Shown: positions 5,129 to 43,684 of the stretch, one piece after another | Layout: the number at the start of each line of letters is the position of its first letter | Position numbering within the stretch: the first letter of the stretch is position 1 | Source: an uncultured Bacteroidales bacterium | GTDB lineage: Bacteria; Bacteroidota; Bacteroidia; Bacteroidales; Paludibacteraceae | Length of the DNA: 62,715 bases | Reading direction: 5' to 3' | NCBI GenBank assembly: GCA_900319645.1 | Contig: ONPG01000011.1 | Location: forward strand, 1 to 62,715 | Translations under genes and position numbers: made by a program | Notes under the pieces: model-generated | What the model was told of the DNA's origin: nothing | Seen by the model: only the letters and a program-made list of their open reading frames with translations | Database searches by the model: none

Positions 5129-8100
5129 TTATCCTATTTTCTCCATGATTACTTTCGTCTCTATAAGGACAGAAATGATCTTGCGATAGTGCTCAATATC
5201 GTCAAACGAAAGCGTACGTCCTTTACGATCTTTGAGCCATTTCTGCGCAGGTTGATAGCCTCCGATATAGAAATTCCACGCTTCGGTCGGAACACCCTCA
5301 AAACATTGAGTTTCGTTGATCCATATATTGCCCGAATAACCATCGTCTTTATTCCACTCCCAACGCAGATAATCCACTTGCATAGTTCCGGCATTGGGGA
5401 AAGAAACAGGCGAATCCGGCACTTTGTGCATCAAATGCAACTCACGGAGTTGGTTGCCGAAAGAGCGAAAATGCTCGAATTCATCGGCATTTTTCGGATA
5501 AGGAATACGCGGGAAATCCACCTTTAGAAACTCCTTATATTTCGCGCGATACGCAGGCGAATGCAATACACCATAGATATAATCGAAGATGTCTTCAGGC
5601 GTTGCTTCTTTGCCGATTATTGTATTGATTTGCGCCCAAATCTTCTCATCCAAATTCGCACGACGCTCGGTTTCTATAGAACCTTCCTCCGGATAGAGGT
5701 AGAGGGGGAAAACCGTACCGCCTCCTCTATAATATATATTCAAATCGGAAATCGTATCTATTGAATAGATAAGATTCCATTCCATCTTTCCAACAGCTTG
5801 TCCTTGACGTCCAATAACGAAAGCTATATTTGGGGATAACATATGTGACAATATGGCAGACTGCGGACTAGAATAAAGACCTCTAGAGTTTCCAGTATAA
5901 TATGTGTATCGTGTATCGAAAGGTCTATAAATAACTTTCTTAACTAAATTATTTCTAAACGAATGCGCATCTTTTCGAGCAGTTTCATATTTCCAATCTC
6001 TAGAATCTTTCTCTCTGCCATATTTTATTCTCCATTCGATTTCAGGCATTTCCAGAAACTCTTGAATTTTCTTAATATGTTCCTCTTGCGAGAATGATAT
6101 ATTGAGTTTATCATTTGCTGTCACAAATCCTAATGTCCAAGTCGAGAAAATTTCATCTACACCAAAGCCCGCCATATATTCAGATTTTCCTTCCTCATCC
6201 ACTTCTACAAATGGATAAAAAGGCTCTGAATAGTTTAATTTTTTAAAATCCACACTCGATAAAACATGTGATACTAAGTATTCATACTTGTCTCCTCTTA
6301 ACCCATACAAGTCTTTATAGAACACTTCCGCTAAATCCCCTTTCTTTTTCTTTCCTGTCTTGATAAATATGTTAATGGATGTACCTACCATGATGTCAAA
6401 GACATTTTCATCTTTTTCTCCATCGGGTGTGGTCTCTTTCGTTTTACTATTTCCATGTAGATTGATAATATAGATTTTATCAAAACTGTGTAGTAAATTC
6501 CAGCGCATTCCACGGAAAGTAGGAGCTTCCAAAAAGCCATTATTGCAAATATAGGCAAGTACGCCCTCTTTATTTCTATCTACATAATACTGCCCTAAAC
6601 GTATAAATTTACAATAATCATCGTTGAGCCAGATTTTGCGTTCTTGTAATGGCTGAACACCTCCCGGCTCTTTCTTGTAATCACTAAGCAAATTGGTAAT
6701 CCATTCCCCGTTATTTTGCGAAATACCCGAATACGGAGGATTTCCCATAACAATCATTACGGGAGCATTTTTCTTGATTCGTGAAGCAGAATTGGCTTCC
6801 TCTGCCAAATAAAGTCCAAAAAGAGTGTTAGCATCTTGATTCGCTTCCTCCAAAGAGTTGGTCAGGAAGACCTTGAGACGTTGTTGCGCCGGAATACCGA
6901 TCTCCATGTCGAGTTTGAGATGGGCAATCGTATAAGGCGCCATCATCAGTTCAAAACCATGCAAACGAGGCAAGAGATGTTCGGGTACGTAACTTGGCCA
7001 AGCGCCCATTTGTCCACCAAGGTCACGTTTGATCTGTCGTACCGTTTCCGCCAAGAATGTACCTGTTCCTGTAGCAGGATCAAGGACTTGCACACGATGA
7101 ACGAGTTTCTTCTCCTTGCGATGTTTGAGGTCTTGTTCTATCTCTTGCTCTATCTCCACTTTGGAGGTGTCTGCCAAACCCATCGGCAAATTAAACTCCG
7201 TACGCAAAATATCATCCACGGCTCGCACAATAAACTCCACTACCGGTTGCGGCGTATAATAGACACCACATTGTTTCTTGGCTGCAGGGTCATATTGGAA
7301 CAAGAAATCTTCGTAGAAATGCAGCATCGGATCGGTTTGTTGTGTGCTCTTTCCAAAACCCTGCATGATCTTCTCCATGTCGGTTGCCGCAAACGCAGAA
7401 ACAAGGTCATCCACTATCCATGCAATACGTTCGTCCAAGTCAAAACCGGCTATCTGTTGGAAGATCTTGCGCAAGAAAGGATTTGTCTTCGGAATAAGGT
7501 TCGCAGCCTCAGCACGTGAGAAATCGTCCGGACTTTCGTCATGTAGACGTGCAGCAAACATACCATATGCGATGGTCTGCGCATAGATATCCGCAAAGGT
7601 TTTCGGCGTTATATCATGGATAAGAACCTGTTGAAAAGCCTGCATATAGCCGCGTAGTTCCGTGGGCGTGTCTCCGTCTTGGATAAGTGCCTGCTCGATG
7701 ATGTCACGCAACAAACGCGCCTTGCCCGCCATCAGTTGCGCCAATTTAGAAGCCGAAGTGATACGTTGTGGACGGGCGTTTTTGATATGCTCCATGAGCG
7801 AGACAAAACGGTCTGCGTCCGACAAACGGATCTTATTGCCTTGTATCTCCGCCAAGCGAACGGATTGTTGCCATTCGCCATGCTCATACAAATGAAAATC
7901 AAGATAATCGGTAAAGATAATAGTGTCCAACGAAGCCTTGTAGCGGTCAAACTGCTCTTTGTTCTTCTTGCGTCCGTCCAGGTCACCGTCTTCGAGGTCT
8001 TTTGCCTCGATATAAGCAATCGGCAGTTGCTTGCTAACCAAAGTTAAATCCGGCGCTCCGCAATCAATATGGCTTTGCTCGTTAATAACAATACATCCTG

Positions 8101-8212
8101 TGCAATCATGTAATAGACGCTGGAGCGCAGGACGAAAAGAATGTTCGGTCGTCAGACCTGTCTGATACAGTTGATTGATCTCCTTGATATACGTGGAGAT
8201 AAATTCATTCAT
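5129..8212 (-). CDS. Type IIG-like restriction-modification enzyme (nuclease and N6-adenine methyltransferase in one chain)
   Basis: 1027 residues. The N-terminus has a PD-(D/E)xK nuclease signature: PD at 54-55 and ExK at 69-71 (AYIEAKD). A helical connector follows, then GVYYTPQPVVEFIV (316-329) leading into the methyltransferase, with SAM motif I DPATGTGTF (378-386) and catalytic motif IV NPPY (491-494). The C-terminal third would hold target recognition. This order matches single-chain Type IIG/MmeI-like or Type ISP-like enzymes; no helicase motifs are visible, which argues against Type ISP. No separate specificity or nuclease gene is adjacent. Codon use around 5.7-6.6 kb is more AT-rich than neighbouring genes, consistent with horizontal acquisition of the recognition part. 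The leader is long and contains the structured element at 8303-8468. Confidence 0.85.
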   Translation of the reverse strand: MNEFISTYIKEINQLYQTGLTTEHSFRPALQRLLHDCTGCIVINEQSHIDCGAPDLTLVSKQLPIAYIEAKDLEDGDLDGRKKNKEQFDRYKASLDTIIFTDYLDFHLYEHGEWQQSVRLAEIQGNKIRLSDADRFVSLMEHIKNARPQRITSASKLAQLMAGKARLLRDIIEQALIQDGDTPTELRGYMQAFQQVLIHDITPKTFADIYAQTIAYGMFAARLHDESPDDFSRAEAANLIPKTNPFLRKIFQQIAGFDLDERIAWIVDDLVSAFAATDMEKIMQGFGKSTQQTDPMLHFYEDFLFQYDPAAKKQCGVYYTPQPVVEFIVRAVDDILRTEFNLPMGLADTSKVEIEQEIEQDLKHRKEKKLVHRVQVLDPATGTGTFLAETVRQIKRDLGGQMGAWPSYVPEHLLPRLHGFELMMAPYTIAHLKLDMEIGIPAQQRLKVFLTNSLEEANQDANTLFGLYLAEEANSASRIKKNAPVMIVMGNPPYSGISQNNGEWITNLLSDYKKEPGGVQPLQERKIWLNDDYCKFIRLGQYYVDRNKEGVLAYICNNGFLEAPTFRGMRWNLLHSFDKIYIINLHGNSKTKETTPDGEKDENVFDIMVGTSINIFIKTGKKKKGDLAEVFYKDLYGLRGDKYEYLVSHVLSSVDFKKLNYSEPFYPFVEVDEEGKSEYMAGFGVDEIFSTWTLGFVTANDKLNISFSQEEHIKKIQEFLEMPEIEWRIKYGREKDSRDWKYETARKDAHSFRNNLVKKVIYRPFDTRYTYYTGNSRGLYSSPQSAILSHMLSPNIAFVIGRQGQAVGKMEWNLIYSIDTISDLNIYYRGGGTVFPLYLYPEEGSIETERRANLDEKIWAQINTIIGKEATPEDIFDYIYGVLHSPAYRAKYKEFLKVDFPRIPYPKNADEFEHFRSFGNQLRELHLMHKVPDSPVSFPNAGTMQVDYLRWEWNKDDGYSGNIWINETQCFEGVPTEAWNFYIGGYQPAQKWLKDRKGRTLSFDDIEHYRKIISVLIETKVIMEKIG

Positions 8213-8302: not shown

Positions 8303-8468
8303 CGAGGTATTTGCCTTACCCATACCACATAAGTTCCGCCCACACTTTCGTGGGCGTTTACCGAACTTATTCGTGTGGTATATTCTTTCTATTGGCAAAT
8401 TTTCGGAATACCTCGAATAAATAGCAAACGCTAATTATTAATATGTTTATAGCACAACGCTTTGTGCT
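8303..8468 (-). ncRNA. structured RNA element, copy C (leader of the restriction-modification gene)
   Basis: Read on the minus strand it starts with hairpin AGCACAA-AGCG-TTGTGCT (8468-8451) and a 35-nt linker. Then comes a long nested hairpin: CGAGGTA/TACCTCG closes it, TTTGCC/GGCAAA lies inside, then TACCACA/TGTGGTA with TAAGTTC/GAACTTA, then a CCCAC/GTGGG apical hairpin. One unpaired side loop is purine-rich. Copies A (43138-43317) and B (18386-18586) share the small hairpin with compensatory changes and the overall plan. It is probably a cis-acting leader or a processed small RNA; its function is unknown. A promoter lies about 180 bp upstream. Confidence 0.5.
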
Positions 8469-8642
8469 TGTTTTATGTCTATCTTTCTCCTTCTTTTACG
8501 TCCCGGAGAACGGACGATGTTCTCTAAAATGGTCAAATTCGACCACTTATTGATTACGTTTTTTCGTTCTTGAACTCATCTAAAACAGATACCGGGTTTA
8601 GCCGTTTTATCGTTTTTCGTAGCACTCGACTAAAAACTGCTG
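8469..8642. other. upstream part of the leader of copy C
   Basis: This would be the first ~170 nt of the transcript from the promoter at 8643-8673. It contains imperfect inverted repeats (CGGAGAACGGACG near 8505 and GGTCAAATTCGACC at 8531-8544). No open reading frame is supported. Confidence 0.35.
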
Positions 8643-8673
8643 CAAAATTACAACTTTTTTCTGAATTATGCAA
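8643..8673 (-). promoter_or_regulatory. Bacteroidota-type promoter for structured leader C and the restriction-modification gene
   Basis: Minus-strand TTG (8671-8673), 20-bp spacer, TAATTTTG (8643-8650) followed by CAGC. The start is about 430 bp before the 5129-8212 gene, so the leader is unusually long. The same TAATTTTGCAGC string is used by the promoter in front of copy A. Confidence 0.75.
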
Positions 8674-8768
8674 ATAAATACACAAAAAAAGTGCCCGAAA
8701 AGAGCACTTTTAATGGGGTTAAACTTGTTCTGGAACGTGTTAAAATGCCTGTTTCAACCTATTTCGGG

Positions 8769-15039: not shown

Positions 15040-18000
15040 TTATTGTATCTCTTGACCTAAGATGGTATAGATCTTATCTTTCCTGAGTATAAGAATTTGG
15101 CCGTCGCGCAAAGTCTTTTGTATGTCGGTGCCATTAACATTAACATTCTCTACTCCTTCGCCAATAGGAGAAGCATCATAAGTCGCAAAATATGTAGCAT
15201 CCATAGTTACAGCAACTATTTCAGGAGTCCATCCCTTAAATGTATAAGTATATTCTTCGTCATTCGGACGAGTTGGAGGAGCGCCTGCGTATATAGGTGT
15301 TGTTCCATAATCCCACAAGTCGGCAGATAAAACATTATCTCCATTCATAAAGGTAATTGTGTACTTGTTAATAATGGAGTTATAAGTGGCTTTGTAAATG
15401 GCATCTGTTGTAACTGGAACAATTTGCGGAGACCAACCTCCAAACGTGTAAGAATATTGCTCATTTCCTGTTTTAACGGGATCTGCCGGTGGTATCGGAG
15501 TAGCACCATATTCATATTCTTGTGAAATCAATATAGTATCATTATCATCTACGAAAGTAATCGTAAATGTTTGCGCAGCAAAAATAGCTGTGAATGTTGT
15601 ATCCTGTGATACATCTTCGTATCGAGGATTATCTGTTACCTTATCTTCCCATTGAACAAAATAATAACCGGGATAAGGAATAGCTTCAATTCTAACAGCC
15701 TCACAAATACTGCCTGGATTTTCAATTTGCACATATCCAGAATTATTAGGCTGTACCTTTCCGTTTACCGTATAAGAGGCTGCTGAGTATTGCAGTTGAT
15801 AATTAGCCCAATCGCTTTGAATGTACGTATCGTAGGTTCCGCAGGGGATATATGTAGGCACATTATTAGGTAATGCACAATTCTGACATATAGGAGGCGT
15901 CGTTGGATGCAATATAATACGATTGATATTTGTGCATCCACTGAAAGCCCAAGGCTCAATCGTTTGTACATTTTCTGGAAATTCTACATATCTCATGTTC
16001 CAACAACCATAAAAGGCACTATTTTCAATGGTTTCTATTCCTTTTCCGAACACTATAAGTGCCAAATCTGTACAGTTCTGGAAAGTATTTGAAGCTATTG
16101 TCTTAACATTGTCGGGTATAGTTACCACATTAAGTCTGCTACAGCCTTTAAAAGCTAAAGTATCTATACTTTGCAGCGCATTAGGCATATATATGTAACG
16201 AAGGTTTGTGCAATCTGCAAATGACGATCTACCGATATGCAGAATGCTTTCTGGAAGAATAATTGAATCCACACTCATACCCGAGCACAAATAATTTGGC
16301 ACTCTTTCAACGTCATCTCCAAATTCCAAATGCTTTATTAAAGAACTAAACGGGGAACTTGTATGAATGTCTGGGTATCTTATCGGATTCCATATGACAG
16401 TATCAATTGAGGAAGAAAAGGCATACTTACCAATTGACTCTACGTTCGATGGTATAACGACAGAATGAGGTGCACAAAATAAAGACAAATAAGATGGTAT
16501 ATGCTTTACATTTTTTCCAAAGGTTAAAAACTGCGCCTTATTATCTTTTATCTGTTGAAAAGATGTTGAACTCTCAAAATTAACAGCATTCCAATGAACT
16601 ATTTTAATATTTTTGCAATCACTAAAGGAAAAAGGATCAAACCAAAGCATTTTCTCTCCAAATGTTATTTCAGCAATAGATGTGTCTCCCGAAAAAACAT
16701 AAGGTCGCACCATTTCCAAACTATCTGGTAGCACCACATACTCCAGTTTCCTACAAGCATAAAATGCTCCATTCTCAATACTATATACCGTATAGGGCAG
16801 AATAAGACTATCCAATACAACGCATGAAGCGAACGCACTTGTACCTATAGTTTCAAGTCCTTCATTGAATCTAACAAACCGTAATTGGGAACATGAAGCA
16901 AAAGCATTCTCACCAATAGTTTTAGTACTTGGTGAAAGGATAATAGAATCAAGCCGGTTACAACTATAGAAACAATTTTTATCAATATTTATGATGTTGT
17001 TACCGAAATGGATTCGTGTTAATGTGTCGCAATTATAGAACGCAGCTTCACCTATACTTTGCATGTTATTAGGAATGGTAACTTCTAAAAGGGAACTACA
17101 CTCTTTGAATGTGGTTTTACAAATACTATCCAATGATTCTGGCAGAGTAATAGATGATAATTTCCTACAACTTTCAAATGCCGAGGAGCCAATATATTTT
17201 GTCTTATTGGGAATTGAGATTGAGGTCAAACCGGTGCAACCAGCGAAAGCATAACTTCCTAAACTCTCTAAAGAGTCAGGAAGAACAAATTCAACAAATC
17301 CAGTACATTGCCCAAAAGCTCCACTTCCAATGTGAATGACTTTCTGAATGTTGGTTACGCTTTGCAGTGACGTGCAACTTTCAAATGCTCCATCTCCAAT
17401 TATCCTTAAATTTTCATTGCCAATTACAGATTGTAAATTAGGACATACATAGAAAGCGTCATCTGCTATTAATCGAGTATCTGTTTTTATAGAGTAATTT
17501 CCATCTACAGTTTCGTTCGCTTTTATGAGACAATCTCCTATATACAAGACTCCATTTTCCCAATTGGCTTGTGTATTATAGATTCCAGATCCATCAAATA
17601 CTTCGCTATCAATATCTATTACGCTTTGAGGAATTGTGATTTGTTGAAGTTTCTCCATCTTGTAGCAAAAACATCTGGGTATTCTTTTTACTTCATTTCC
17701 TATAATAACGGAATTTATGAAGGGTCTGGTAGATTGGAATATATCGAACGTATACATATCATAAGAGTATTGCTGACCTGTCTCCATATCAATCCCATAA
17801 CCTTTCGTGTAAGCATAACCATCACATACTTTTTCGCAATCTATCACATTCCAAATAATCTCCTTTAGTTTATAACAATCCATAAAAATCTCATTGCCAA
17901 ATTTGGTTACATTTTTGCCAATTGTAACAGAAGTCAAACTCGAACATTCCTTAAATGCCCGTTCGTCAATATGTGTTACACTATTAGGAATTTGTAACTC

Positions 18001-18330
18001 GGATAATAAGCCACATTGTGCAAATGCGTATTCTTTAATTGCTTCAAGTCCAGCTCCAAAGAAAATTTTATTTAGTTTTCTACAACCGAAAAAAGCCCGT
18101 CCACCTATAGATCTGACACTATCAGAAAATACTACATATTGGGGGTTATAATATGCCCATGGACCTTGATTTCCATAGGAATTCATATAGCCAGAACCAT
18201 TAATGTACAATGTGTCATTACTTATTGTCCATGTTAGATTTTCGCCACATGTACCAGAAGGATTGTCAGCATAAACCATCGTTACGCCTATTGCAAGTGC
18301 AATAATAAAAGATAGTGTTTTGAGTTTCAT
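15040..18330 (-). CDS. BspA-like leucine-rich-repeat surface protein with Listeria-Bacteroides repeats
   Basis: 1096 residues from ATG 18330. A GTG at 18375 would extend it by 15 residues, but the signal peptide MKLKTLSFIIALAIG begins at 18330. The bulk (about residues 50-840) is more than twenty LRR_5/BspA repeats of the form I-G-x-x-A-F-x-x-C-x-x-L-x-x-I-x-I-P. Two or three ~70-residue Listeria-Bacteroides repeats follow (ITFVDDNDTILISQEYEYG, ITFMNGDNVLSADLWDYG). The end is a short tail with QKTLRDGQILILRKDKIY, shared in style with two other surface proteins here. BspA-like proteins act in adhesion and binding. The gene is more AT-rich than its flanks, suggesting transfer. Structured element copy B lies directly upstream. 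Confidence 0.88.
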   Translation of the reverse strand: MKLKTLSFIIALAIGVTMVYADNPSGTCGENLTWTISNDTLYINGSGYMNSYGNQGPWAYYNPQYVVFSDSVRSIGGRAFFGCRKLNKIFFGAGLEAIKEYAFAQCGLLSELQIPNSVTHIDERAFKECSSLTSVTIGKNVTKFGNEIFMDCYKLKEIIWNVIDCEKVCDGYAYTKGYGIDMETGQQYSYDMYTFDIFQSTRPFINSVIIGNEVKRIPRCFCYKMEKLQQITIPQSVIDIDSEVFDGSGIYNTQANWENGVLYIGDCLIKANETVDGNYSIKTDTRLIADDAFYVCPNLQSVIGNENLRIIGDGAFESCTSLQSVTNIQKVIHIGSGAFGQCTGFVEFVLPDSLESLGSYAFAGCTGLTSISIPNKTKYIGSSAFESCRKLSSITLPESLDSICKTTFKECSSLLEVTIPNNMQSIGEAAFYNCDTLTRIHFGNNIINIDKNCFYSCNRLDSIILSPSTKTIGENAFASCSQLRFVRFNEGLETIGTSAFASCVVLDSLILPYTVYSIENGAFYACRKLEYVVLPDSLEMVRPYVFSGDTSIAEITFGEKMLWFDPFSFSDCKNIKIVHWNAVNFESSTSFQQIKDNKAQFLTFGKNVKHIPSYLSLFCAPHSVVIPSNVESIGKYAFSSSIDTVIWNPIRYPDIHTSSPFSSLIKHLEFGDDVERVPNYLCSGMSVDSIILPESILHIGRSSFADCTNLRYIYMPNALQSIDTLAFKGCSRLNVVTIPDNVKTIASNTFQNCTDLALIVFGKGIETIENSAFYGCWNMRYVEFPENVQTIEPWAFSGCTNINRIILHPTTPPICQNCALPNNVPTYIPCGTYDTYIQSDWANYQLQYSAASYTVNGKVQPNNSGYVQIENPGSICEAVRIEAIPYPGYYFVQWEDKVTDNPRYEDVSQDTTFTAIFAAQTFTITFVDDNDTILISQEYEYGATPIPPADPVKTGNEQYSYTFGGWSPQIVPVTTDAIYKATYNSIINKYTITFMNGDNVLSADLWDYGTTPIYAGAPPTRPNDEEYTYTFKGWTPEIVAVTMDATYFATYDASPIGEGVENVNVNGTDIQKTLRDGQILILRKDKIYTILGQEIQ

Positions 18331-18385: not shown

Positions 18386-18586
18386 AGCCCTGCGACGGAA
18401 ACCTTTTCCACTTTAAGAAACTCACACTAATGTGTAAGCATCTATTATAGTGGAAAAGGCATACCTATATGCAGGTCGCCTTCACTGATTATTTCAGAGC
18501 TTTATATCCGTCAACTTTCGCAGGGCTTTCGGTAAAAGTGAAATAATAGCAATGCTTTGTTTATACGTAACGCAACGCTTTGCGCT
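18386..18586 (-). ncRNA. structured RNA element, copy B (leader of the BspA-like gene)
   Basis: Read on the minus strand it begins with hairpin AGCGCAA-AGCG-TTGCGTT (18586-18569) and a 41-nt linker. A nested hairpin is closed by a perfect 10-bp stem AGCCCTGCGA/TCGCAGGGCT (18518-18527 with 18386-18395). Inside are a perfect 11-bp stem CCTTTTCCACT/AGTGGAAAAGG and an apical CACA-TTAG-TGTG hairpin. The unpaired 5' side is about 60 nt, longer than in copies A and C. No own promoter was found, so it is probably transcribed with the 18621-19532 gene. Confidence 0.5.
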
Positions 18587-18620
18587 TAACCTTGCTTTTT
18601 TAGGTCAGCAAGAGACTATT

Positions 18621-19532
18621 TTAAGTATTCCTATTGAATAATTCTTTTTTATATGACTCGCTACAATAAGCCAAAGAAGCACGGAAATCTTCAGAATCCA
18701 AAAGGCCTTTTGTCAAGAATGTTAAATCAACATCAAAATCCTTTAGCATAGCGGAATGAATAAAATACAACACCAAGGCAACATTTGCGGATAATGGCTC
18801 GTATAAATCTTTATTGGCTGTCTCAATCGTTAAATTACTCATGCTTAATCCATGAACATGTTGAGACAAATAATCACAAAAGTCAGAATATAGACCATGA
18901 AACTTAGATGGAAGTAAATCATGCAATTCCGACCACTTATATCCCTTTGGATTCTCAAAACTCTTAAACTTCCAATTGCGTTGGAGTATCAATCTTTCTA
19001 TTAGACTTTTCCGAGATGTATAAATCTCTAAATTCTCTATCGCTTTAATGCAAAAATCTTTCGCCTGATTCAGATTATTCCTCATAAACGAAAGTTTCTG
19101 TGCAAGAAAGTTGTATTCCTTTTCTGTAATCTTATCTGTACGGTTAAGTGGATGTCTTGAATCAATGTCTAATTTCTGCGAAACTCCGTCTAAAATGTAC
19201 AAATAATGTCTTAATAGTACTTCTTCTTTATTTGCATGATAGATTAAGTGGTAAACAGAAATGCCGTCTAACAAACTTCGTAAAATAGATGATGCTACTA
19301 TATAATCTTGACATTCTTCTACAACCATTACATAAGTGCTTACGCTATGCATCAATTTTTCTAAAAGAAAAACTTTATATCCACGCAAGTCATTGATATT
19401 ATTGGAGGGATGTTTTTGTTTTAGTTGTTTTATCTCAAATCCAAATAATAACAAATACGCTTTTACTGCATTCATACTTGAGAATCCGAACATCTCAAGT
19501 TCCGGAATTGTTATTTTGGAAACTGATTGCAT
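18621..19532 (-). CDS. uncharacterised protein, possibly DUF5677-like
   Basis: 303 residues, all-alpha by appearance, with no signal peptide or membrane span. The phrase VEECQDYIVASSILRSLLDG (~72-91) is like the conserved core of DUF5677-type proteins (many such proteins have an E-x-x-R-S/L helix), but I cannot confirm the family. It is clearly lower in GC than the housekeeping genes, lies alone between two transcripts, and has its own promoter (19596-19626). It may be accessory or defence-linked; that is inference from composition and setting only. Confidence 0.55.
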   Translation of the reverse strand: MQSVSKITIPELEMFGFSSMNAVKAYLLLFGFEIKQLKQKHPSNNINDLRGYKVFLLEKLMHSVSTYVMVVEECQDYIVASSILRSLLDGISVYHLIYHANKEEVLLRHYLYILDGVSQKLDIDSRHPLNRTDKITEKEYNFLAQKLSFMRNNLNQAKDFCIKAIENLEIYTSRKSLIERLILQRNWKFKSFENPKGYKWSELHDLLPSKFHGLYSDFCDYLSQHVHGLSMSNLTIETANKDLYEPLSANVALVLYFIHSAMLKDFDVDLTFLTKGLLDSEDFRASLAYCSESYKKELFNRNT

Positions 19533-19595: not shown

Positions 19596-19626
19596 CAAAA
19601 TTACTACTTTTTTTTGACATATACAA
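19596..19626 (-). promoter_or_regulatory. Bacteroidota-type promoter for the 18621-19532 gene
   Basis: Minus-strand TTG (19624-19626), 20-bp spacer, TAATTTTG (19596-19603). The predicted leader is about 60 nt. Confidence 0.72.
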
Positions 19627-19923
19627 GTTTTGCTGCCGGAAACAACTAAATTTCTACATTTTTTGTAAACGAAGTCTGGAAAATTCCGCTTCAAAAATTT
19701 TGCTCTGAGACTTAAAGAATAGGAGGTTTATGGGTCAATTTGCAGGCGGCAACATGTTCTCTGCCTTGATAAATACAGAGTAAACGCGCATTTCAACCTT
19801 GTCAATGCTAATTTTGGGCTATTACGCGGTTCCCCAAGCCGCATACTACGCAATCCCAAACGTATTGATTATAACACGTTACGAGCAGCCAGCAAATTGC
19901 TCCCCATAAGTCCAAAACAACGA
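19627..19923. other. intergenic region without a recognised gene
   Basis: About 300 bp with imperfect inverted repeats (for example CGCGGTT and AAGCCGC around 19826-19845). One 19-codon minus-strand frame (around 19790-19735) is too short to support. I see nothing I can name. Confidence 0.3.
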
Positions 19924-42955: not shown

Positions 42956-42992
42956 ATAATTGCGAAAAAAAGACAAATTTAGCCGAATTTAT

Positions 42993-43023
42993 TTGCACAA
43001 TTGAAATAAATGTTGTAATTTTG
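42993..43023 (+). promoter_or_regulatory. Bacteroidota-type promoter for structured RNA copy A
   Basis: TTG (42993-42995), 20-bp spacer, TAATTTTG (43016-43023) followed by CAGC. There is no gene for 790 bp downstream, so it most likely drives a non-coding transcript containing copy A. Confidence 0.75.
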
Positions 43024-43137: not shown

Positions 43138-43317
43138 GGCGCAAGGCGTTGTGCCACAACAAAAGCGTAATAAGCCAACTTGATTCATTGAAACCCTAGA
43201 CAAGTTACAAAGAATCATTAAAACTTCAAGTACGGTTTATGCACGCTCACGTGTTAGCGTGAGTTTTCCGTGCATTATTTGAAGTTTTAAGGTAAGTCTA
43301 GGACCTCAATGAATCAA
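43138..43317 (+). ncRNA. structured RNA element, copy A (free-standing)
   Basis: Small hairpin GGCGCAA-GGCG-TTGTGCC (43138-43155), then a 24-nt linker. A long hairpin follows: 12-bp perfect stem TTGATTCATTGA/TCAATGAATCAA (43180-43191 with 43306-43317), 7-bp CCTAGAC/GTCTAGG (43195-43201 with 43296-43302), and an asymmetric bubble of 16 against 5 nt. Above it are 12-bp TTAAAACTTCAA/TTGAAGTTTTAA (43218-43229 with 43279-43290) and apical TGCACG/CGTGCA and CTCACG/CGTGAG. The closing stem, large central bubble and apical stem resemble 6S RNA in plan, but no 6S sequence signature can be confirmed. A promoter lies upstream and a small terminator downstream. Confidence 0.55.
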
Positions 43318-43329
43318 ATGAAGCAAATG

Positions 43330-43347
43330 AAAGCACACGCTTTTTTG
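43330..43347 (+). terminator. possible terminator of the copy A transcript
   Basis: Stem AAAGC/GCTTT with an ACAC loop followed by TTTT. It is short, so modest confidence. Confidence 0.45.
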
Positions 43348-43539: not shown

Positions 43540-43600
43540 ACGAACCAACAAAATACAAACAAGTGAGAAAGTCGAAAAATCTTAATAAAAGTACATTTTA

Positions 43601-43684
43601 TGGACAATGGACGATAGACAATGGACAATGGACAATGGACGATGGACAATGGACAATGGACAATGGACGATGGACAATGGACTA
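43601..43684. repeat. 7-bp tandem array (TGGACAA/TGGACGA)
   Basis: Twelve 7-bp units in strict register. TGGACAA dominates and TGGACGA recurs at units 2, 6 and 10, so a higher-order period of four units (28 bp) is visible. It lies just upstream of the promoter at 43717. Confidence 0.82.

Follow-up and report, generated by a model that had tools for sequence, protein, structure and literature searches.

Three copies of the element in the window

The window, the whole stretch of 62,715 nucleotides analysed here, is contig 16 of the 48-contig, 2.64-Mb genome of an uncultured Bacteroidales bacterium of the Paludibacteraceae, and this genome is 84% complete. It carries three copies of a structured element, named A, B and C, together with the genes and upstream modules listed below. 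Promoter-like sites of the form TTTG...TAATTTTG were called with a consensus of the Bacteroidetes type.

42992-43023, plus strand: promoter-like site TTTG...TAATTTTG of copy A, called by eye from this consensus
43138-43155, plus strand: head hairpin of copy A, GGCGCAA-GGCG-TTGTGCC
43180-43317, plus strand: nested body of copy A with inner stem and apical hairpin; closing stem 43180-43191/43306-43317, second stem 43195-43201/43296-43302
43257-43268, plus strand: 5' half of the putative terminator of copy A, within the 3' arm of the apical hairpin (counted by hand)
43327-43340, plus strand: tail of copy A, the 3' half of the putative terminator, followed by the U-run at 43341-43346 (counted by hand)
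19596-19627, minus strand: promoter-like site of the 303-aa gene upstream of copy B, called by eye
18621-19532, minus strand: left module of copy B, an ORF of 303 aa with no Pfam match
18591-18616, minus strand: H-type pseudoknot-like module of copy B with a 3-bp first stem, seen by eye and missed by the strict scan
18569-18586, minus strand: head hairpin of copy B, AGCGCAA-AGCG-TTGCGTT
18386-18568, minus strand: linker, small hairpin and nested body of copy B; 5' half of the putative terminator at 18427-18414
18371-18358, minus strand: tail of copy B, pairing over 14 of 14 bp with 18427-18414, followed by the U-run at 18357-18353
15040-18330, minus strand: gene behind copy B, coding for a BspA-type leucine-rich-repeat protein (LRR_5), with its ATG at 18330
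8643-8674, minus strand: promoter-like site TTTG...TAATTTTG of copy C, called by eye
8485-8516, minus strand: H-type pseudoknot module of copy C, CGTC/GACG plus TTCTCC/GGAGAA, found by the strict scan
8451-8468, minus strand: head hairpin of copy C, AGCACAA-AGCG-TTGTGCT
8303-8450, minus strand: linker, small hairpin and nested body of copy C; 5' half of the putative terminator at 8343-8330
8296-8283, minus strand: tail of copy C, which also forms a local AAGTGA/TCACTT hairpin, followed by the U-run at 8282-8276
5129-8212, minus strand: gene behind copy C, coding for a type ISP restriction-modification enzyme

For copy A, one of the pairing scans chose a different U-run from the one listed. The nearest co-oriented gene behind copy A, the PPIase gene, begins only after about 470 nt and has a promoter-like site of its own. 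Between the two, ATGGACA/ATGGACG-like units form a short tandem repeat (43600-43681, plus strand). The pseudoknot-like module of copy B begins 4 nt past the upstream stop codon.

The element begins at its 5' end with the head and an A/T-rich linker that often contains ACATATT. A small hairpin comes next, and then a long nested hairpin that is interrupted by internal loops and bears an apical hairpin of the TCACR/YGTGA type; a tail with endings such as TCACGC or TCGCAC and a U-run complete the element. The distance from the head to the U-run is about 190-260 nt in most copies, and recurring letters are seen by eye in the internal loops of the body. The original prediction had placed a 7-bp hairpin at the start of each of the three copies. 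The three heads lie at the predicted places, and each of them forms 7 of 7 standard pairs, wobbles included. However, the conserved stem of the family is 6 bp, closed by a loop that is mostly AGCG, and the outermost pair forms in only 7 of the 18 rows of one subfamily. The nested hairpin described behind each head is likewise present in all three copies. The bodies had been regarded as unrelated sequences built on the same plan; the plan is indeed shared, but the bodies fall into subfamilies and are not all unrelated. The extent first given was too short, and the elements run 27-33 nt further 3', through the tail to the end of the U-run.

At the right end of the element, loci L001, L013, L022, L028, L032, L227, L230 and L234 carry a second inverted repeat, GATTGATAGT...ACTATCAATC. 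It follows the U-run, precedes the start codon and often touches the ATG.

Occurrence, fold and covariation of the RNA family

The element is abundant in related genomes. A pattern search of its own genome gave 13 places, namely 10 full copies, a truncated copy that stops after the head and linker (L007), and two places that look like chance matches within coding sequence (L010 and L011). A small covariance model added two further elements with altered heads on contig 29. The 11 true pattern matches and these two additions therefore make 13 element places in this genome, one of them truncated; the predicted family is real, but it is not limited to three copies.

The exact 16-mer of the head, GCRCAARGCGTTGYGC, was matched 57 times across 61 genomes, whereas the reversed control pattern gave 3 matches; in the own genome alone the numbers are 8 and 0. 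By eye, at least two of the 57 matches (L024 and L025) look like coding sequence that lacks the element. The 16-mer occurs in 23 of 37 same-genus genomes, the own genome included, and in none of 24 genomes from other families. A longer pattern matched 2 of 393 genomes of the order, which are the own genome and one same-genus genome. In a named sequence collection, at least 117 stretches match a pattern that contains the head and the linker motif, the linker motif being demanded by the pattern itself. Among the matches listed (80 rows), the titles are Paludibacteraceae or (uncultured) Bacteroidales, and many carry rumen, goat, sheep or deer sample names.

The homologs that a covariance model had been proposed to find are plentiful. 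Model R1, built from 32 of 42 references and giving rough E-values, matches 28 of 200 genomes of the family, 22 of them same-genus (own included) and six from other genera; of these six, all but G544 and G601 were read. Full elements were seen on reading at L227-L229, L230 and L234, which represent three other genera of the family. The match at L233 (G461) turned out on reading to be only a hairpin without a body and is a false match. Among the 11 places read from the model search, L231 has no TTTT run and the tail pairing of L235 is weak. Changes in the head tend to affect both sides of a stem pair while the loop is mostly kept, as in GTGCGT-AGCG-ACGCGC (L229) and GCGCGA-AGCG-TCGCGC (L232); mismatches in the head occur in L230 and L234, and other loops in L228 and L234.

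In total, 145 head-bearing places were extracted, mostly from metagenome-assembled genomes titled Paludibacteraceae or uncultured Bacteroidales, and part of them were read by eye. Three (L024, L025 and L146) were judged to be chance heads; these were left out of the pair-similarity, pseudoknot, promoter and joint-alignment counts given below and kept in the gene-orientation count. L237 and L239 were scanned for heads only. Pairs of co-oriented elements 5-8.5 kb apart on one contig were observed in G609 (C5), G602 (C29) and G620 (C4). One element pattern had no match in viral contigs, and neither plasmids nor phages matched a 243-nt query that spans almost the whole L230 element; carriage by phages or plasmids was rejected on these two results.

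Head, body and some flank fold with z-scores of -6.1 in copy A, -6.5 in copy B and -4.4 in copy C, and no shuffle was equally stable. The part after the head has a median z-score of -6.6 in 98 copies (30 dinucleotide shuffles per copy), with 92 of the 98 below -3 and 5 above -2. Base changes in the body preserve its pairing. Alignment A3 was drawn from the 22 copies of clusters 0 and 3 plus L069 and, with L111, L158 and L080 omitted, contains 19; in it, 32 of the 59 body pairs vary on both sides. The covariation score is 0.343, compared with 0.169 in shuffled alignments (0/500 as high) and at most 0.091 with partners slid, the latter comparison favouring the tested structures because they were derived from the same sequences. 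In alignment A4, which holds all 12 copies of clusters 5 and 6, both-side changes occur in 21 of 39 body pairs, as high in 1 of 500 shuffles, and the score is 0.442 against 0.201 in shuffled alignments (0/500 as high). In both alignments, the body scores lie above all 500 shuffles and above the slid controls.

Consistently with the earlier statement that the element fits no named family, Rfam 15 gave no match in the window. Among 11 own-genome loci scanned with E-values up to 5, and among 10 more loci, only DUF805b passed the gathering threshold, in the former outside the element; over the element, no locus scanned had a match at the gathering score, and the 11 loci had no credible one at E-values up to 5 either. 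The DUF805b RNA (RF02914) is a cis-regulatory RNA, as the element probably is, but it is a separate 35-nt motif that does not match the element. It lies between the U-run and the downstream gene at L002:1190-1224 (minus strand) and L052:3783-3817 (plus strand). Literature searches among open-licence PMC papers listed nothing that was recognised as this RNA. The original prediction read the copies as an unnamed family of structured RNAs that keep their pairing by compensatory changes. This reading is supported, its refuting conditions having failed to refute it, and the observation is confirmed as more than chance and larger than first stated. The prediction did not cover the terminator half, the leader position before genes in the same direction or the swapping of upstream modules at the head.

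Pairing of the tail and position before genes

Immediately before the U-run, 14 nt can pair with a segment about 46-75 nt upstream that comprises the 3' arm of the apical hairpin and the adjoining loop. Up to 147 copies entered the tail test, those with less than 300 nt of right flank being skipped, and the 103 with a called U-run were kept; 98 of these were used for the body z-scores, paired nucleotides and control U-runs, and 92 and 90 for fold competition. The pairing is copy-specific. Its mean energy is -15.5 kcal with the tail's own body, -9.9 kcal with the bodies of other copies and -8.8 kcal for shuffled tails (103 copies), and the own pairing beats its cross mean in 95 of the 103. When 536 other U-runs from these loci are tested with the same geometry, their mean is -6.5 kcal against -15.6 kcal at the elements, and 0.2% of these controls reach the element median. 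At least 11 of the 14 tail nucleotides are paired in 84 of 98 copies (fewer than 11 in the remaining 14), and in 93 of 98 the pairing stops no more than one base short of the U-run. The elements of other genera (L227-L230 and L234) retain it.

Between subfamilies the terminator stem covaries, as seen in A4, where both-side changes occur in 8 of 15 pairs (25 of 500 shuffles as high) and the score is 0.371 against 0.231 in shuffled alignments (0/500 as high). In A3 the stem is nearly invariant, with both-side changes in 2 of 14 pairs (76 of 500 shuffles as high) and a score reached by 32 of 500 shuffles; because of this near-invariance, A3 says little for or against the stem.

Because the tail can pair with the apical 3' arm of the body, a predicted intrinsic terminator and the body fold compete for the same bases. 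In 90 copies, 77% of the paired bases in the 5' half of the terminator take part in upstream pairs of the body fold. The median cost of forcing the terminator is 10.3 kcal (92 copies), and the minimum free energy fold already holds the terminator in 7 of 92. The U-run thus directly follows a stem whose 5' half also joins an alternative upstream fold. The same complementarity could instead be that of a pseudoknot. Subfamily g2 and copy C also bear a local hairpin before the U-run, and this hairpin could terminate transcription without any switch.

The element lies before genes that point in the same direction. ORFs were called by a simple longest-ORF script and not by a gene caller. Of 136 copies, 112 have a co-oriented ORF as the next one downstream, 12 have an opposite one, and for 12 none was found; the bias of 112 in 124 has a probability of about 1.7e-21 against 50%. 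The nearest upstream ORF of the same copies is co-oriented in 102, opposite in 27 and not found in 7. For 93 copies a U-run was called and a co-oriented ORF follows within 400 nt. Their start codons lie a median of 50 nt behind the U-run, and only 6 of the 93 have a promoter-like site in this interval. The genes behind the element are therefore mostly without a promoter-like site of their own, copy A being an exception. Within 200 nt 5' of the head, a promoter-like site is found in 46 of 138 copies; all these promoter counts come from a single consensus without a shuffled control. The 46 upstream sites would suit stand-alone small RNAs that act in trans and have their own promoters and terminators, and copy A, with its promoter-like site and U-run, resembles such an isolated unit. 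However, the gene starts that follow the U-run closely in 93 copies, the scarcity of promoter-like sites between the two, and the linkage of the body to the downstream gene (49 of 198 gene-similar pairs compared with 241 of 6472 others, see below) make this reading very improbable for the family.

Protein scans covered 97 of 103 downstream and 90 of 94 upstream ORFs, and a single downstream protein can match several families. DNA methyltransferases are prominent downstream, with EcoRI_methylase in 23 of the 97 proteins, MmeI methyltransferase in 5 and N6_Mtase in 4; a PADLOC model of type II methyltransferases also matches 23 of the 97. MBOAT follows with 4, Acyl_transf_3, Gly_transf_sug, Caps_synth and Sulfatase with 3 each, and BspA-type LRR with 2. 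The 90 upstream proteins include YhcG/DUF1016 (6), polyvalent kinase (4), Fic (4), KilA-N (3), and ORF6N, AbiH, RhuM, AbiEii, Zeta and ParE (2 each).

The competing folds and the position before genes suggest that the element is probably a leader RNA acting by attenuation on transcription of the following gene. In this reading, RNA polymerase would enter from a promoter or from an upstream operon gene and would transcribe first the head, then the nested body, and then the tail and U-run. Pairing of the tail with the apical 3' arm would produce an intrinsic terminator abutting the U-run. Because this arm is otherwise held inside the body, the body would act as the antiterminator. Since the body fold is computed to be more stable, read-through is likely to be the default, and some signal would tip it to termination. 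The terminator presumably works in the cell, and the switch would be regulated. The body fold may also be so stable that it never yields, which would speak against attenuation.

Attenuator leaders normally guard one pathway and occur in one or a few copies. The element shares with transcription attenuators and riboswitch platforms a predicted terminator and a competing antiterminator directly before the gene, with the U-run abutting the terminator stem. It is unlike them in having many copies per genome before unrelated genes, a variable body behind a near-invariant hairpin, and mosaic upstream modules. We rate it as a new, undescribed RNA family, probably of the attenuator type, that is unusual in its copy number, gene range and modular joint.

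The dfn leader of LoaP-type antitermination combines a small RNA hairpin with a downstream terminator (PMC12691694), and such leaders resemble the element in placing a small hairpin early in a long leader and an intrinsic terminator before the operon. However, the LoaP hairpin is of the UNCG type and is bound by a NusG paralog, whereas the loop of the element is mostly RGCG, and the available excerpt of that paper mentions no alternative terminator fold comparable to the competing fold of the element. The UpxY model NF033644 was over its cut-off in 1 of 61 same-genus genomes, and its only match in the own genome was below the cut-off; antitermination of the UpxY type is thus not supported.

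Exchange of upstream modules at the head

Toxin-antitoxin-type genes, pseudoknots, tRNA-like pieces and promoters are swapped as upstream modules, and the junction is usually the head. Locus classes are set by position relative to the head and hence cannot by themselves locate the start of homology. The counts below therefore come from alignments with no filter on their start, made between copies each flanked on the left by 150 nt or more. Of the 533 alignments that cover the body, 325 start within 3 nt and 445 within 20 nt of the head start, and 6 start more than 200 nt upstream. The 75 alignments that reach at least 600 nt downstream behave likewise, 41 of them starting within 3 nt and 61 within 20 nt of the head start and none beyond 150 nt upstream. 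Among 28 left-side alignments that begin at least 150 nt upstream, 15 end 10-40 nt after the head start, 2 end before it and 11 continue past 40 nt. These counts indicate that the right-hand joint is sharp and the left-hand joint less so.

The left sides of L008 and L029 are common over 1.5 kb at 95.6% and their right sides differ, and the right sides of L029 and L054 are common over 1.4 kb at 96.7% and their left sides differ. Among 6670 copy pairs, 48 have similar left parts, and of these 2 share the body and 3 share the gene. The body is common to 49 of 198 gene-similar pairs compared with 241 of 6472 other pairs. Bodies therefore partly travel with genes, and left parts mostly travel with neither.

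An H-type pseudoknot stands left of the head in 59 of 138 copies by a strict scan, with 37 distinct second stems and a density of 2.76 per kb against 0.19 per kb in control stretches. Its first stem is CGTC/GACG in 46 of 61 modules, the scan requiring the pairing. Among the 138 left parts, 13 contain hairpins of the ATCGG type and 12 contain tRNA or tRNA-like pieces.

For 40 of the 61 pseudoknots an upstream stop codon was identified; the median spacing from this codon to the pseudoknot start is 9 nt, short enough to be covered by a ribosome terminating there. In L046, L050, L052, L107 and L161, the head is preceded by between one and three ATCGGCCAAGCTTGACCGAT-type hairpins. A truncated tRNA-like piece was seen by eye 5' of the heads in L036, L055, L065, L071, L126 and L134; it is mostly GGGGTATTAGCTCA...TTCGAGTCCGCTATACTCCAC, with the letters of the acceptor and T-arm and apparently without an anticodon arm. 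The 3' parts of tRNAs were seen by eye 5' of the heads in L016, L044 and L054. In L030, the head is followed by an inserted promoter-like site and a second pseudoknot that is joined directly to a headless body, an arrangement that suggests recombination at the joint.

CGTC-tagged REPs carry an unpaired CGTC tag, a stem of 8-9 bp, a loop of 4-5 nt and a CCA-like tail (PMC3733652). The upstream pseudoknot is like them in often beginning with CGTC and often following a coding region. However, its CGTC pairs with GACG in an H-type pseudoknot that is only an optional left module of the element, and on this structural ground identity with CGTC-REPs as described in the accessible part of that paper was rejected.

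The sharp starts at the head (325 of 533 within 3 nt, 445 within 20 nt), the opposite sharing in L008/L029 and L029/L054, the finding that only 2 of 48 left-similar pairs have similar bodies, and the two heads 836 bp apart in L069 would also be expected if the head were the attachment site of a site-specific recombinase and the left modules were integron-like cassettes of a toxin-antitoxin gene plus a pseudoknot. Such a recombination platform seems distinctly unlikely. The left-side alignments end less sharply (15 of 28 within 10-40 nt), L069 is the sole multi-head locus among those in the head scan, so that dense arrays are absent there, although the co-oriented pairs 5-8.5 kb apart occur in three other genomes. 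Behind the downstream genes of the window, the stretches read showed no further head. Head variants with changed stems argue for an RNA structure and not for a fixed DNA site, and homologous recombination among repeats could produce the same pattern. The integron integrase model TIGR02249 had no match over cut-off in the own genome (84% complete); the weak matches in this genome are also given by all 14 control genomes. An integron cassette array was rejected because there is neither an integrase over cut-off in the own genome nor a dense tandem array of heads among the loci scanned.

Mosaic repeats of bacterial genomes offer another comparison. Pneumococcal BOX elements resemble the element in being mosaic, modular, multicopy intergenic sequences with an RNA fold, placed where operons extend in the 5' or 3' direction, and they have been judged parasitic rather than specialised (PMC3049150). 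They are a precedent for a selfish or passive mosaic repeat, MITE-like or BOX-like, in which mobile structured DNA sits between genes and the RNA structure is a by-product. That the element is multicopy, mosaic and lineage-specific and that its RNA module is common to loci whose left and right neighbours differ fit this explanation. So does its absence from related loci: a match to the PPIase locus of copy A was found in 29 of 60 other genomes, and the head is present in 0 of these 29 same-genus loci (about 1.5 kb on each side, two shorter). Because the gene order at these loci differs from that of copy A and no clean empty site was seen, the absence of the head is no proof of an empty site. 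A passive repeat would not predict the orientation bias of 112 against 12, the short distance to the start codon, covarying and sequence-divergent stems, or copy-specific terminator pairing. The orientation bias, start-codon proximity and terminator pairing also set the element apart from BOX elements as far as the consulted part of that paper describes them. No transposase occurs in the adjacent-gene families listed (25 of 57 and 25 of 67); a good match to a transposon terminus was among the refuting conditions given with the original prediction. Passive repetition is an unlikely explanation.

If attenuation is the function, the near-invariant head is presumably the binding site of one shared trans-acting factor that coordinates methylation and surface genes. 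A more speculative extension, which we consider possible but doubtful, is that of a portable genome-wide cassette, in which one trans factor would read the head and switch a dozen leaders at once, and the head would double as a plug-in joint for interchangeable inputs such as toxin-antitoxin genes, pseudoknots, tRNA-like pieces and promoters.

A single undescribed family thus stands before many unrelated genes, among which DNA methyltransferases are prominent beside glycan, membrane and surface genes. Genes of these kinds are commonly varied by Bacteroidales as a defence against phages and hosts. With upstream parts being swapped at a near-invariant hairpin, the evolution of regulatory inputs becomes readable, and the arrangement points to a shared factor that can be sought. 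If the element is indeed a portable cassette, DNA methylation, surface glycans and surface proteins would change together, and the family would be an RNA-level counterpart to the phase variation by invertible promoters of other Bacteroidales.
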